A stretch of 38,390 nucleotides of DNA from IMG/VR virus record IMGVR_UViG_3300027752_001394, positions 1-38,390 of that record. One strand, 5' to 3'. This DNA is from a virus. Positions 25,868-38,308 of the stretch are shown piece after piece (the first letter of the stretch is position 1; every line of letters begins with the position of its first letter). The notes beneath the pieces were generated by a model, which was not told the origin of the DNA, did not search any database, and saw only the letters and a list, made by a program, of their open reading frames with translations. The translations under genes were made by a program, and so were the position numbers.

Positions 25868-26626
25868 ATGGCTAAAGCCCAAGAAATATCAGAAGCTAAG
25901 ATTCGTCAAGTACTTTGGATGATTAAGACAAAGAAGACTAAAAAAGCTTGTTGCGAACATTTAGGTATCGCATATAATACTAAAAAACTAGATACAATTA
26001 TAGAAGACTTTCATAGAGGTCTTGAACGCGAAGCAGAACTTAAAAAAGCTGCGCGTAAAAAGATTTTTACTGTTAAAGAAAAACAGTCTATTGCTGATTC
26101 ATACCTAAACGGTATGGCACAATCTGCTATATCTAAGCAGTTTTATATATCCCCACAAAAAGTTAAAGCTATACTAATGGAGCTAAATGTTCCGATTAGA
26201 GGCCGTGGCAAGAATTCAGAAGCCAAGGTTGACCATATTATACAAGATCTAGAAGTAAAATTTGCAAAAGGTGATAAAGTATTTCTAGCTAAACTTAACT
26301 GCTTTGGTATAGTAGATGATGTGTATGATGAAGACAAGATTGAAAACCTTGGTGAAGGTAGACAAAGGTATGTAGAGACTTACACATTTAAACCTGGCCC
26401 TAAAAATAAGTGGCAAGAGCCTCAAGAAGGTATTCATTATGAAATCTACTGGCAATTTGAAGATGGTACAGAAATGAAACTTAATGCTGTTAAAGATATT
26501 ATAAATAAAATTAATAAAACTATTGAAGAAACTGGAAGAGAGTATTATCGCGTTTGGCGTGCAGATGATATGGGTGCTTTTTATACTTTTACTCGTGACC
26601 AATTATACCCAGTTAAGGCGGCCTAA
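25868..26626 (+). CDS. DNA-binding HTH protein of the replication module
   Basis: 252 residues, AGGAG seven bases before the ATG. Two helix-turn-helix-like units come first: KTKKACCEHLGIAYNTKKLD (~25-45) and EKQSIADSYLNGMAQSAISK, with QFYISPQKVKAILMELNVP (~70-110). Then KFAKGDKVFLAKLNCFGIVDD looks like a KOW/SH3-type strand pair, and the tail YYRVWRADDMGAFYTFTRDQL is strand-rich. It is the first gene of the replication operon and its stop overlaps the helicase start, so a replication-origin or helicase-loading role is plausible but unproven. Confidence 0.65.
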   Translation: MAKAQEISEAKIRQVLWMIKTKKTKKACCEHLGIAYNTKKLDTIIEDFHRGLEREAELKKAARKKIFTVKEKQSIADSYLNGMAQSAISKQFYISPQKVKAILMELNVPIRGRGKNSEAKVDHIIQDLEVKFAKGDKVFLAKLNCFGIVDDVYDEDKIENLGEGRQRYVETYTFKPGPKNKWQEPQEGIHYEIYWQFEDGTEMKLNAVKDIINKINKTIEETGREYYRVWRADDMGAFYTFTRDQLYPVKAA

Positions 26627-34873: not shown

Positions 34874-35809
34874 TTGTACAAAAGTATTAAAACTTTTACC
34901 AATGAGTATGACGTAGAAGTTGAGTGGGATCTAACAACTAGGTGTAACTATTCATGTAGTTATTGCAAAAGTTATGATAACACTCAACCTTTACTGTTAA
35001 AAAATATACAAGAGTATAAGAAAGTAGTAAACTACTTATCTTCTTATTACCCCAAAAAAATAATGAAAATTGACCTTTTAGGCGGTGAGCCTATGTTATT
35101 TAAAGAATGGGCTGAGTTACTTCAGTATATATACGATTGTGGTCACATACCAAAAATAATAACTAACTTAGCTATACCACTTAATACGTTGAGAAATAGA
35201 GTATATAATAAGACCTTTGGCGAATGTATTGACGTAAGCTTTCATCCTGAATTTTCTAATCCTCAAGCATTTATAGATAAAGTTAAGTTTTTATATAATA
35301 ATGGATATCTAAAAACTGGAGGGGTTTTGATGCACCCCAATCATTGGAACACTTGCATATATGTCTATAATGAGTTAAAATATACTAATAAAGTAGGTTA
35401 TAGTAAGATTAAAAATGAAGATACTAATTCAAATAGTATAGCATCAGGTTTTATTAACTATACTAATGAGCAGGAGGACATACTAAGTACTCCTAGTATA
35501 GTAAGTAGTGGTAGGTATACAGAAGTCACTTATGAAGATAAAGTAGAAACCTACAAAACTATAGATGATCTATTTGCTAATAATATAACCAACTTTCAAG
35601 GGCTAAACTGCTATGTAGGAAGTACTAGATTACATATAAAACCTAATGGGGACAGCTACCCCAGTGCTTGCTTACTAAAGTATGCAAAAAGTAAAATAGG
35701 TAATGTATACAAGCAAGATTTAAAGATTATTAATAAACCAATAGTATGTCCTTTTAGCTTTTGTGGTTGCGGGCCTGATATTAGAATTGAGAAAAGAAAA
35801 GTAATATGA
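34874..35809 (+). CDS. Radical SAM protein with SPASM-like C-terminus
   Basis: 311 residues; TTG is the only start that includes the domain's opening, and it lacks a good ribosome site. CNYSCSYC (Cys24, Cys28, Cys31) binds the 4Fe-4S cluster that cleaves SAM. LLGGEPML is the GGEP motif. Near the end, GLNCYVGSTRLHIKPNGDSY, CLLK, CPF and CGCGPD give several cysteines as in SPASM domains with an extra cluster. Relatives modify peptides or small molecules. It could modify a product handled by the neighbouring glycosyltransferase and oxygenase. The stop overlaps the next ATG by four bases. Confidence 0.85.
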   Translation: MYKSIKTFTNEYDVEVEWDLTTRCNYSCSYCKSYDNTQPLLLKNIQEYKKVVNYLSSYYPKKIMKIDLLGGEPMLFKEWAELLQYIYDCGHIPKIITNLAIPLNTLRNRVYNKTFGECIDVSFHPEFSNPQAFIDKVKFLYNNGYLKTGGVLMHPNHWNTCIYVYNELKYTNKVGYSKIKNEDTNSNSIASGFINYTNEQEDILSTPSIVSSGRYTEVTYEDKVETYKTIDDLFANNITNFQGLNCYVGSTRLHIKPNGDSYPSACLLKYAKSKIGNVYKQDLKIINKPIVCPFSFCGCGPDIRIEKRKVI

Positions 35810-36420
35810 GTGACGTAGATAGAGAAATATTATTACAACAGATAAGAATCAAAGAAAACTTATTCGCAGAAGGGGGTAATAAAGATTTTTACAATAAAAT
35901 TCTTAGTAATGAAGAACTATTTGATGATGAGATTTTTGTTAAAGCACAACAAATAAAGATGTTTAGAGGCAAAACTATACCTTTTAAGTTACTAAGCAAC
36001 ACCGACACTGTTGTTAAGTTTGAGTTAAAAAGATATATGAATTTTGTTAGATTTGTAGGACAAACTGTTATACATCAAGCCTTTAATGAGCTTCACGCAC
36101 CAGACAATACTGAGATAACCAGATGGAAAGTAGGATCATCTATGACTCCTCACTCAGACAATTCTTGGCCTGATGGAAATCAACTAGATCACCCTACTAG
36201 TTTTAGAACATGGTCTGGCATATACTATATCAATGATGACTATGAGGGTGGAGAAATATACTTTCCAGAATTAAATTGGAATTTTAGACCTAAAGCAGAT
36301 ACTCTTCTAATGTTTCCTTCTACTAGTAAGTATATACACGGAGTTAATACGGTATCTAAGGGTACACGATTTACTGTAGCTGCATGGTATACTAATGACT
36401 ATGGGTATCTAGAAGTATAG
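35806..36420 (+). CDS. Prolyl-4-hydroxylase-like 2OG-Fe(II) oxygenase
   Basis: 204 residues. Typical P4H-type core: SSMTPHSDNSWP (His116, Asp118), IYYINDDYEGGEIYFPEL, DTLLMFPSTSKYIHGVNTV (His178) and GTRFTVAAWYT (Arg188). It should oxidise a protein or sugar residue with Fe(II), O2 and 2-oxoglutarate. It is the best-formed member of the four such proteins here. It is coupled to the radical SAM gene by an ATGA overlap and is the last gene before a gene-free, foldable segment. Confidence 0.85.
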   Translation: MSDVDREILLQQIRIKENLFAEGGNKDFYNKILSNEELFDDEIFVKAQQIKMFRGKTIPFKLLSNTDTVVKFELKRYMNFVRFVGQTVIHQAFNELHAPDNTEITRWKVGSSMTPHSDNSWPDGNQLDHPTSFRTWSGIYYINDDYEGGEIYFPELNWNFRPKADTLLMFPSTSKYIHGVNTVSKGTRFTVAAWYTNDYGYLEV

Positions 36421-36597
36421 GCGCAATACGGGACCGGACAGTTATGCAACTACGTTGCCCGTCTACAGAACTAACGTTCTAAACACAGGAGAACAGTTGT
36501 GGGAGCGCTGTTCATTAGCTTTTCACCTACGGTGTAACTCCTGTTCACTTGCTGCTTACAATATATAGCATACTTATCTAAAAGAGGCCAACTAAAA
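36421..36597 (+). ncRNA. Foldable gene-free segment, candidate structured RNA
   Basis: There is no sizeable gene here. Base composition is clearly richer in G+C than the neighbours. Potential stems in order: GCAAC-TAC-GTTGC (36446-36458); AGAAC-TAAC-GTTCT (36467-36480); AACAG with CTGTT (36492-36496, 36508-36512); CACC-TAC-GGTG (36524-36534); and ACAGGAG with CTCCTGT (36485-36491, 36538-36544), which encloses the two preceding stems as a three-way junction. GAACAG can also pair with a second CTGTTC at 36541-36546, an alternative fold. A leader, riboswitch-like element or small RNA is possible; no known family is recognised. Confidence 0.45.
36499..36537 (+). CDS. Possible 12-codon leader peptide
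   Basis: A GTG seven bases after AGGAG (36487-36491) opens MGALFISFSPTV and a TAA. The ribosome site forms one arm of the ACAGGAG/CTCCTGT stem, so translation and folding would compete, as in leader-controlled genes. Evidence is limited to start, spacing and overlap with structure; chance is quite possible. Confidence 0.25.
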   Translation: MGALFISFSPTV

Positions 36598-37353
36598 ATG
36601 TTAAGACTTTTACCTACATCTAAAAATAATCCAGACAGGGATACTACAGTACAGTGGTGGGGTGGAGATAATGAACTAGATTATACTAAAAATTTAAAGA
36701 TAATAGGTAATAGTTGGGATTATATTAACAAACCAGTTACATATACTATTAACTCACAGGGATATAGATGTAAAGAATTTGATAAGTTAGATTGGGAAAA
36801 TAGCTATTCAGTATTAGGTTGTTCACATATATTTGGTGAAGGCAATGCTTTTGAAGACTGTATACCACAAAAACTAGAATCGTTTTCTGGCACTACGTGC
36901 ATAAACTTAGGGGTATCAGCCTCTGCTAGTGAACATTGTTTTTTAAATGCTCTAAAGATTTTTAGCTATACAAAGGTTAAAAAGATAATTATAGTATGGC
37001 CTTATCTTACTAGAGAAAACTTATATGACGAAGACTATTTATACAGATATAAACATATACTAAAAAATATGGGAATGAATAATACTAAGAAAAATCTTTT
37101 ATATAAATGGTTAGAACAAACAATAACTCCTACTGAGCATTGGAAATATCTTAAAAAAACTTATATAGAAATTCTTACACAATTATATGGAGATAGGTTT
37201 ATTAATTTTAGTATAGAAGAATTAGAAATGGAATTTGGTGGAGCTACTAACGAAACTTTAGAGTATGATTTAGCTAGAGATAGAAATCATTATGGCCCTC
37301 AATGGAATACTAAAGTTGCAAAGAAAATACTAAAGGAAATAAACAATGATTAA
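36598..37353 (+). CDS. SGNH/GDSL hydrolase-like protein
   Basis: 251 residues. YSVLGCSHIFGEG (Ser76) takes the place of block I with the nucleophile serine, CINLGVSASASEH gives block II, and RDRNHYGPQ near residue 230 holds the Asp/His pair of block V. The middle KIIIVWPYLTREN contains the third strand. Such enzymes cleave or transfer acyl esters, often on sugars. The upstream UTR carries the foldable segment and AGAGG before the ATG. Confidence 0.68.
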   Translation: MLRLLPTSKNNPDRDTTVQWWGGDNELDYTKNLKIIGNSWDYINKPVTYTINSQGYRCKEFDKLDWENSYSVLGCSHIFGEGNAFEDCIPQKLESFSGTTCINLGVSASASEHCFLNALKIFSYTKVKKIIIVWPYLTRENLYDEDYLYRYKHILKNMGMNNTKKNLLYKWLEQTITPTEHWKYLKKTYIEILTQLYGDRFINFSIEELEMEFGGATNETLEYDLARDRNHYGPQWNTKVAKKILKEINND

Positions 37354-38308
37354 GATTATGAGTAGTGCAGATTGGCACGTTAATCTACATAAGAAGAAAG
37401 TACCTTATAAGTGGCAAACTAATCGTTTTAAACTAATGTTTGAGCGTATGAGTAGATTAGAAAAAGACTGCGATGTACATGTTATCGCAGGTGATTTATT
37501 TGATAAAAAACCAGAACCTGATGAAATTTGTTTAGTACTATCTTATCTAAACTCAGTAACCATTCCAACATATATAATTCCGGGGAACCATGAAGCTACT
37601 AAAAAAGGCGAAACATTTTGGGAACACTTTACTCTTGAAAATACAATTAATAATCCAATGGTCAAAGTATTCACTAAGAATTCCAGAGAAGTTTTTAGAT
37701 CACAAGGATTTTGTTTCTTCCCATATGGAGAAGTACAGACAGACAACTTACCACAATATGTTGATGGTGATATACTGGTTACTCACATTAGAGGAGAAGT
37801 TCCGCCACATATTACGCCAGAATATGACTTCGCCTATCTCGCTCCTTGGGGCTTATGTTTACTTGGTGATTTACACTTTAATCATCGCTATCTTGACACT
37901 AACTGTTACTATCCTGGCTCTCCAATAAATACTACTTTTGATCGTGATGATAACCGTGACTATGGTATTGATATATTTAACTTAGTAGATTCTAGAAACT
38001 ATACTAGAGAATTTATTAACCTAAAACTGCCTAAGCTTATTAGACGTACAATTAAGGTAGGCGAGCTTATGAGTGCAGACTCTTATCATCATGTAATGTA
38101 TGAAGTTACAGGCTCTATAGATGAGCTTAGTAGAGTAGAGAAGAGTGATTTACTTGATAAAAAAATGGTAGAAAAACCTGCCTCAGACTCTACCTTAGAT
38201 CTAAAAGGCATGACTATTTATGAAGAGCTTAAAACATACTTAACACATATAAAAGTATCAGATGTTGATAAAGTACTGCTTGAGTTTGAAAATGTAAATC
38301 AAACATAA
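37346..38308 (+). CDS. gp47/SbcD-like recombination nuclease (metallophosphoesterase)
   Basis: 320 residues, AAAGGA before the ATG. Metal-binding motifs: SSADWHVN (Asp9, His11), VIAGDLFDKKPEPDE (Asp50), IIPGNHEATKKG (Asn81, His82), ILVTHIRGE, and LLGDLHFNH. These match the SbcD/Mre11/gp47 exonuclease family, which works with a SMC-like ATPase (gp46/SbcC) on DNA ends. No gp46 partner is visible within the window; it may lie beyond its end. The TAA overlaps the next ATG. Confidence 0.88.
   Translation: MIKIMSSADWHVNLHKKKVPYKWQTNRFKLMFERMSRLEKDCDVHVIAGDLFDKKPEPDEICLVLSYLNSVTIPTYIIPGNHEATKKGETFWEHFTLENTINNPMVKVFTKNSREVFRSQGFCFFPYGEVQTDNLPQYVDGDILVTHIRGEVPPHITPEYDFAYLAPWGLCLLGDLHFNHRYLDTNCYYPGSPINTTFDRDDNRDYGIDIFNLVDSRNYTREFINLKLPKLIRRTIKVGELMSADSYHHVMYEVTGSIDELSRVEKSDLLDKKMVEKPASDSTLDLKGMTIYEELKTYLTHIKVSDVDKVLLEFENVNQT

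Follow-up and report, generated by a model that had tools for sequence, protein, structure and literature searches.

What might a gap without genes, richer in GC than its surroundings, be doing in the replication module of a phage? The window (the whole 38,390-nucleotide stretch of viral DNA analysed here) is, judging by its gene families, the replication module of a T5-like phage. Its order runs from an NAD-dependent ligase through a D5-like regulator, a helicase-like protein, a DnaB-like helicase, a primase and the DNA polymerase to, in the last part, a D10-like helicase, an SSB/D11-like protein, cargo (radical SAM, 2OG oxygenase), the element described below, an ORF that had been called SGNH, and D12/SbcD. 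Positions 25868 and 26626 mark helicase genes of the module, and 28014 its primase. Among isolates, the polymerase and D12 come closest to those of T5-like phages that infect enterobacteria and Vibrio, with about 40% identity. Positions 36421-36597 fall between two ORFs on the same strand (35806-36420 and 36598-37353), and their GC content is 0.44-0.45 as against about 0.31 in the surroundings, which bears out an earlier note on this DNA in calling the segment gene-free and GC-richer. The same note suggested that selection acts there on an RNA, and whether this is so, or whether the DNA itself is the selected form, is the question that we take up.

All of the immediate neighbours lie on the plus strand. 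The 2OG-Fe(II) oxygenase, a cargo gene, is 5' of the element (35806-36420); the ORF first labelled SGNH follows (36598-37353), with no match in Pfam or PHROG and almost no IMG/VR relatives by the peptide patterns used; and after it comes the D12/SbcD-like (gp47-like) nuclease gene (37346-38308). The window also carries, at 977-1398, a phage-encoded permuted tmRNA of the alphaproteobacterial type, with Rfam scores for alpha_tmRNA and permuted tmRNA and the tag ANNNFAPSGYALAA, and this tmRNA type suggests that the host is alphaproteobacterial.

The first relatives of the segment came from IMG/VR loci retrieved via the upstream 2OG gene, a related segment standing directly after that gene in several contigs. 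A 17-base pattern then recovered about 80 IMG/VR phage loci, 54 of them non-redundant, and a covariance model added divergent copies adjoining D12 in other contigs. Of 20 larger records, which reach 80 kb, 16 had exactly one significant copy each, and four partial records had none. In T5-like replication modules the usual site is between the SSB/D11-like gene and D12/SbcD; in another lineage (L151, L165) the element sits on the dUTPase side instead and not beside D12. Upstream neighbours include the 2OG oxygenase, radical SAM, an SSB-like protein and short ORFs, and downstream neighbours D12, SGNH-like and other unrelated genes, with dUTPase in the second lineage. Because the neighbours vary on both sides, the element is not the leader of one gene, and the idea of a leader for the SGNH and gp47-like genes is not supported. 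The element's orientation is always that of the neighbouring genes. Between close relatives, cargo turns over on either flank of the element (radical SAM, 2OG oxygenase, SGNH-like and others; window 34874-37353, L003-L012).

The element belongs to no Rfam family and matches nothing annotated in isolate phages, and the principle of its loops is already known from phage N4. Rfam returned no match at the gathering threshold, nor any at E<=10 within 36300-36700, and when the window element and two marine-type copies were compared with isolate phages by blastn, the matches were weak and partial, and none of them is an element. The D11-D12 region of T5-like phages (Demerecviridae) is alike in gene order and in its homologous replication genes but differs in the stretch from Vibrio phage Ceto, where D12 has no gap upstream and the covariance model finds no copy. 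Ceto is a classical T5-like phage, so the missing gap there means that T5-like replication does not generally involve the element. A scan of genome contigs produced three scattered matches in unrelated organisms, which are probably due to chance.

The 53-copy alignment, the covariance-model match (36419-36573, 103 bits) and a conserved downstream block together place the entire element at 36419-36591 on the plus strand, from AGGCGCA to GGCCAA. Across copies it measures about 150-175 bp, with conserved bases extending from the upstream stop codon to the start-codon region downstream. The left boundary motif, AGRCRYA (36419-36425, plus strand), overlaps the TAG stop of the upstream gene, an overlap frequent among the copies, and the border is set there because near-identical copies with different upstream genes converge at this motif, their similarity beginning exactly at it. 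TGACGT-like bases sit between the motif and the first hairpin. At the other end, the copies have an AT-rich flank with TTAGCATA; in the window this flank (36554-36585, plus strand) includes TAGCATA (36566-36572) and is followed by the right block GGCCAA (36586-36591, plus strand), represented in relatives by (G/T)CAA, which keeps a fixed spacing from TAGCA despite the differing downstream gene and start-codon position.

Several copies have additional features near these borders. Terminator-like hairpins lie between the upstream gene and the element at L243:16350-16400 and L219:1550-1610 (GGCGGGG..CCCCGCC-TTT; AACACCGCAA..TTGCGGTGTT). About 25-45 bases 3' of TAGCA in L101, L115, L171 and L174, ATGGCAAAT...ACTTGA makes a short frame closing at TGA, while in the same region the coding of a protein like MKNLTLLEIYNN, as it starts in L089, runs on in a different frame that lacks a usual start codon; this conflict of frames may possibly reflect a frameshift or an unusual start.

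Three short hairpins form the structured part of the element. Given with their plus-strand letters and read on the minus strand, they are hairpin 1 (36446-36458), GCAAC-TAC-GTTGC, with the minus-strand loop c(GTA)g; hairpin 2 (36467-36480), AGAAC-TAAC-GTTCT, with the tetraloop c(GTTA)g; and hairpin 3 (36524-36534), CACC-TAC-GGTG, again with c(GTA)g. The conserved stems are only 4-6 bp long, and the loops of hairpins 1 and 2 are about 20-22 bases apart. On the plus strand of the window, both hairpins of this loop class with at least 5 bp lie inside the element, and there are none elsewhere in the 38 kb. Some relatives vary the set: a further hairpin with this kind of loop stands just left of or within the element at L243:16375-16395 (GAAAC-TCC-GTTTC) and L005:6625-6650 (GCAAC-TCC-GTTGC), and at L239:3360-3430 an 11-bp perfect inverted repeat, AACGCTACGCA...TGCGTAGCGTT, surrounds ACGCA-TCC-TGCGT in place of hairpin 2.

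The earlier note had named conservation and covariation as the check on selection; both were looked for, and homologues and clear covariation were found. In the 53 aligned copies, 99.1% of the cells of the three hairpins are paired and 7 of the 12 hairpin pairs show two-sided changes, with 0 of 500 shuffles reaching any of the measures, and slid versions of the pairing drop to 23-36% paired. On a tree built from non-stem columns, the arms of hairpin 1 changed 7 times and those of hairpin 2 changed 11 times, compensated nearly always. An unbiased covariation scan of the aligned copies (with weights and APC) ranked pairs of the three hairpins at the top and found no long-range covarying helix.

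The folds originally drawn fared differently, and neither the three-way junction nor the switch is borne out. The arms named for them are present, ACAGGAG at 36485-36491 with CTCCTGT at 36538-36544, and GAACAG at 36491-36496 with CTGTTC at 36508-36513. The outer ACAGGAG/CTCCTGT helix of the supposed three-way junction is unconserved, with 54% of cells paired and 98 of 500 shuffles as high, and the alternative partner of GAACAG, on which switchable pairing depended, is 38% paired, a value reached by 488 of 500 shuffles. What survives of the GAACAG/CTGTTC helix is a weak ACA/TGT core, with U-G in 24 of 53 rows; the remainder is not kept. In stability, the minimum-free-energy fold does not exceed dinucleotide shuffles (z = -0.12 for the plus strand, +0.70 for the minus strand). 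The proposed 12-codon frame exists in the window, as a GTG frame at 36499-36537 with AGGAG at 36487-36491, but it is not conserved: among 28 aligned copies with a comparable frame a Shine-Dalgarno-like site occurs in just one.

Which strand, and which nucleic acid, is folded may be read from the loops. On the plus strand they follow a simple rule, nearly always C-TNC-G and occasionally C-TNNC-G, where N is any base: we counted TAC 94 times, TCC 56, TGC 30, TTC 4, TGCC 3, TAAC 2 and TGGC once, the sole exception being a TCT loop in L224 (hairpin 3). The loop-closing C-G pair is constant, and most other stem pairs vary. Read on the minus strand, the same loops become c(GNA)g and c(GNNA)g. In the citing literature, GNA triloops are described as unusually stable DNA hairpins (Yoshizawa 1997, cited in PMC6479982), and so is d(cGNNAg) (Nakano 2002, cited in PMC5090098). 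Known RNA loop classes suit them less well: for a minus-strand GNRA loop the third position must be a purine, which GTTA, GGCA and GCCA all violate, and a UNCG loop would call for a fixed pair outside it. In UNAC loops the third position is A, and the TGCC and TGGC tetraloops violate this. The paired cores of the hairpins contain no G-U on the plus strand, and a lone A.C, in L089, would be a wobble only on the minus strand. Loop energies were also ranked; the energy sets score triloops without regard to sequence, which makes the triloop part of the ranking uninformative, and for the three unique tetraloop hairpins the minus strand comes first when scored as DNA and close to first when scored as RNA. 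From the published loop classes and six tetraloop cases, we infer that the loop chemistry favours a folded minus-strand DNA over RNA. Since the loops belong, on the minus strand, to a known stable DNA class, the element probably acts as DNA and not in the regulatory-RNA role that was suggested at first. What stands of the claim of selection on RNA is thus a selected, structured nucleic-acid element, attested by its homologues and covariation, in which the loop chemistry points to minus-strand DNA.

A structured RNA of the plus strand would nevertheless account for part of this pattern. The transcript might be a small RNA, or the structure might serve processing or translation of a polycistronic transcript, its UNC loops being recognised by an RNA-binding protein of the phage or the host. 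The hairpins covary, the element lies in transcribed space between same-strand genes, its constant orientation with both neighbouring genes would also be explained by an RNA, and the U-G pairs of the weak ACA/TGT helix would fit if that helix is real. We nonetheless regard such an RNA as rather unlikely, in view of the failure to match Rfam, the absence of a long-range helix and of G-U in the hairpin cores, and the lack of a consistent downstream gene. Moreover, UNC/UNNC is not a known class of stable RNA loop, as opposed to the known DNA class of the minus-strand reading, and the sequence blocks that keep a fixed spacing lie outside the hairpins. Hairpins of integron attC sites and of DGRs do not match the anatomy of the element.

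The nearest physical likeness that we can point to is with phage N4, whose vRNAP promoters are hairpins with a sheared G:A pair in the loop; single-stranded-DNA-binding protein melts the non-template hairpin there, whereas the c(GNA)g hairpin of the template strand withstands it (PMC4496689). Within the first 12 kb of N4, our loop rule picked out exactly three sites, in the same orientation to the genes as the element. One of these, going by its sequence, is the P2 hairpin of the known vRNAP promoters. Like the N4 P1-P3 promoters (Schitoviridae), the element has short c(GNA)g hairpins on the minus (template) strand, reading C-TNC-G on the coding strand, with a partly free stem and a place upstream of same-strand genes; hairpins 1 and 2 show the N4-type feature of a 5-7 bp template-strand c(GNA)g hairpin, hairpin 2 of the window being a tetraloop variant, whereas hairpin 3 has only 4 bp. 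Unlike those promoters, the element arrays three hairpins at one place, together with phased repeats, in a T5-like phage group with no vRNAP detected among 14 partial records. The element physically resembles N4 promoters but is not a member of that group.

Could it nonetheless be an N4-like promoter region, its DNA mini-hairpins recruiting a phage or host RNA polymerase for rightward transcription? The strand of the hairpins and their orientation to the genes match the three N4 hairpins, in most copies 15-17 bases separate TTCACT from TAGCAT (by inspection), and in L239 and L219 terminator-like hairpins stand immediately upstream. The bases that N4 vRNAP contacts are a G at -8 in the stem and a G at -11 in the loop centre (PMC4496689). 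In the element these are unconserved, as the second stem pair and the loop centre vary, and the minus-strand loop centre is T in about half. No relative of the N4 mini-vRNAP was matched in 14 partial records, in a search whose positive control, N4, was found; a search with the T7-like RNA polymerase family PF00940 gave no match, its control included, and so does not bear on the question. A promoter scan of the window showed no excess and no site at the element, the element occurs at one site per genome only, and its TAGCAC and TAACAT variants would make poor -10 boxes. A promoter role thus appears improbable.

The remaining parts of the element are direct repeats and a flank that may melt. TTCA repeats lie on the plus strand at 36511-36514 (position 0), 36522-36525 (+11, running into hairpin 3) and 36544-36547 (+33, 32 in most copies), and spacings of 0, 11 and 31-33, often with a further repeat at -11, recur in nearly all of the 80 copies. 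The repeats are helically phased, at about one and three helical turns. The base 3' of TTCA covaries between the last repeat and the repeat at hairpin 3 (C/C in 44 copies, A/A in 8, A/C in 1), as expected if a single protein reads both, with the A lineages being few. The AT-rich flank has a GC content of 0.26 and a dG of -1.137 as against -1.204 +/- 0.026, a modest effect.

A site of replication initiation or priming fits best, because the element is single-copy, belongs to the replication module and not to a gene, and combines phased repeats, a meltable flank and strand-specific hairpins. We therefore consider it, with a probability of roughly 40%, to be a DNA element that acts in cis, is present once in the replication module of these uncultured T5-like phages, and most likely serves as an origin or priming site. 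On such a model, an initiator would bind the TTCA repeats, and supercoiling or the initiator would melt the region. The minus strand would then fold into c(GNA)g and c(GNNA)g mini-hairpins that resist single-stranded-DNA-binding protein, while that protein would keep the plus strand open; the AT-rich flank would open, and the helicase or primase of the same module would be loaded there. That the element is, in particular, a double-stranded-DNA-phage origin or priming site made from an SSB-resistant, strand-specific mini-hairpin array, the N4 trick put to use in replication and not in transcription, and of a kind unknown in isolates, is possible but doubtful.

Known origins offer partial parallels to such an initiation site. 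Phased direct repeats and an adjacent AT-rich meltable stretch are both found in the element, as in the iteron origins of lambda and of plasmids, which are likewise single-copy and located in a replication module; the element differs from these in its short (TTCA core) and uneven (11, about 21) repeats and its covarying mini-hairpins. The ssi and sso sites, including those of G4 and RSF1010 and Frpo of the F plasmid, are likewise strand-specific single-stranded-DNA hairpins, and hairpins of this type recruit primase or RNA polymerase. Compared by description, they differ in belonging to single-stranded-DNA phages or to rolling-circle or mobilisable plasmids, and in having longer hairpins. GC3 skew, which is uninformative here, shows no switch at the element in two records, and DnaA boxes (TTWTNCACA, at most one mismatch) are not enriched, with 25 matches against a mean of 13 and a maximum of 27 in shuffles. 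A search of the literature for a hairpin at the T5 replication origin found nothing relevant.

Alternatively, the hairpins may mark a recombination or nuclease site, for example one where the SbcCD-like D12/D13 hairpin nuclease acts, or a hot spot of cargo exchange. Enzymes of the SbcCD type act on hairpins, D12 is usually a neighbour or nearby, the cargo to left and right differs, and copies that are nearly identical meet different genes precisely at the left border. Yet homologous recombination alone predicts exchange at a conserved anchor, the conserved repeats and their spacing exceed what a hairpin nuclease needs, and in L151 and L165 the element is found on the dUTPase side and does not adjoin D12. 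To this explanation we give little credence.

Our findings bear on how T5-like phages begin to copy their genomes, a start that to our knowledge is undefined at the sequence level. We also know of few natural elements in double-stranded DNA in which selection acts on one DNA strand in its folded state, and the present case is a reminder that covariation alone does not imply RNA. With its dozens of naturally occurring variants, a loop rule that is clear and a sharply defined border, this family makes the questions of DNA or RNA, and of origin function, directly testable. If the reading as an origin is true, it would represent a surprising use of DNA mini-hairpins.
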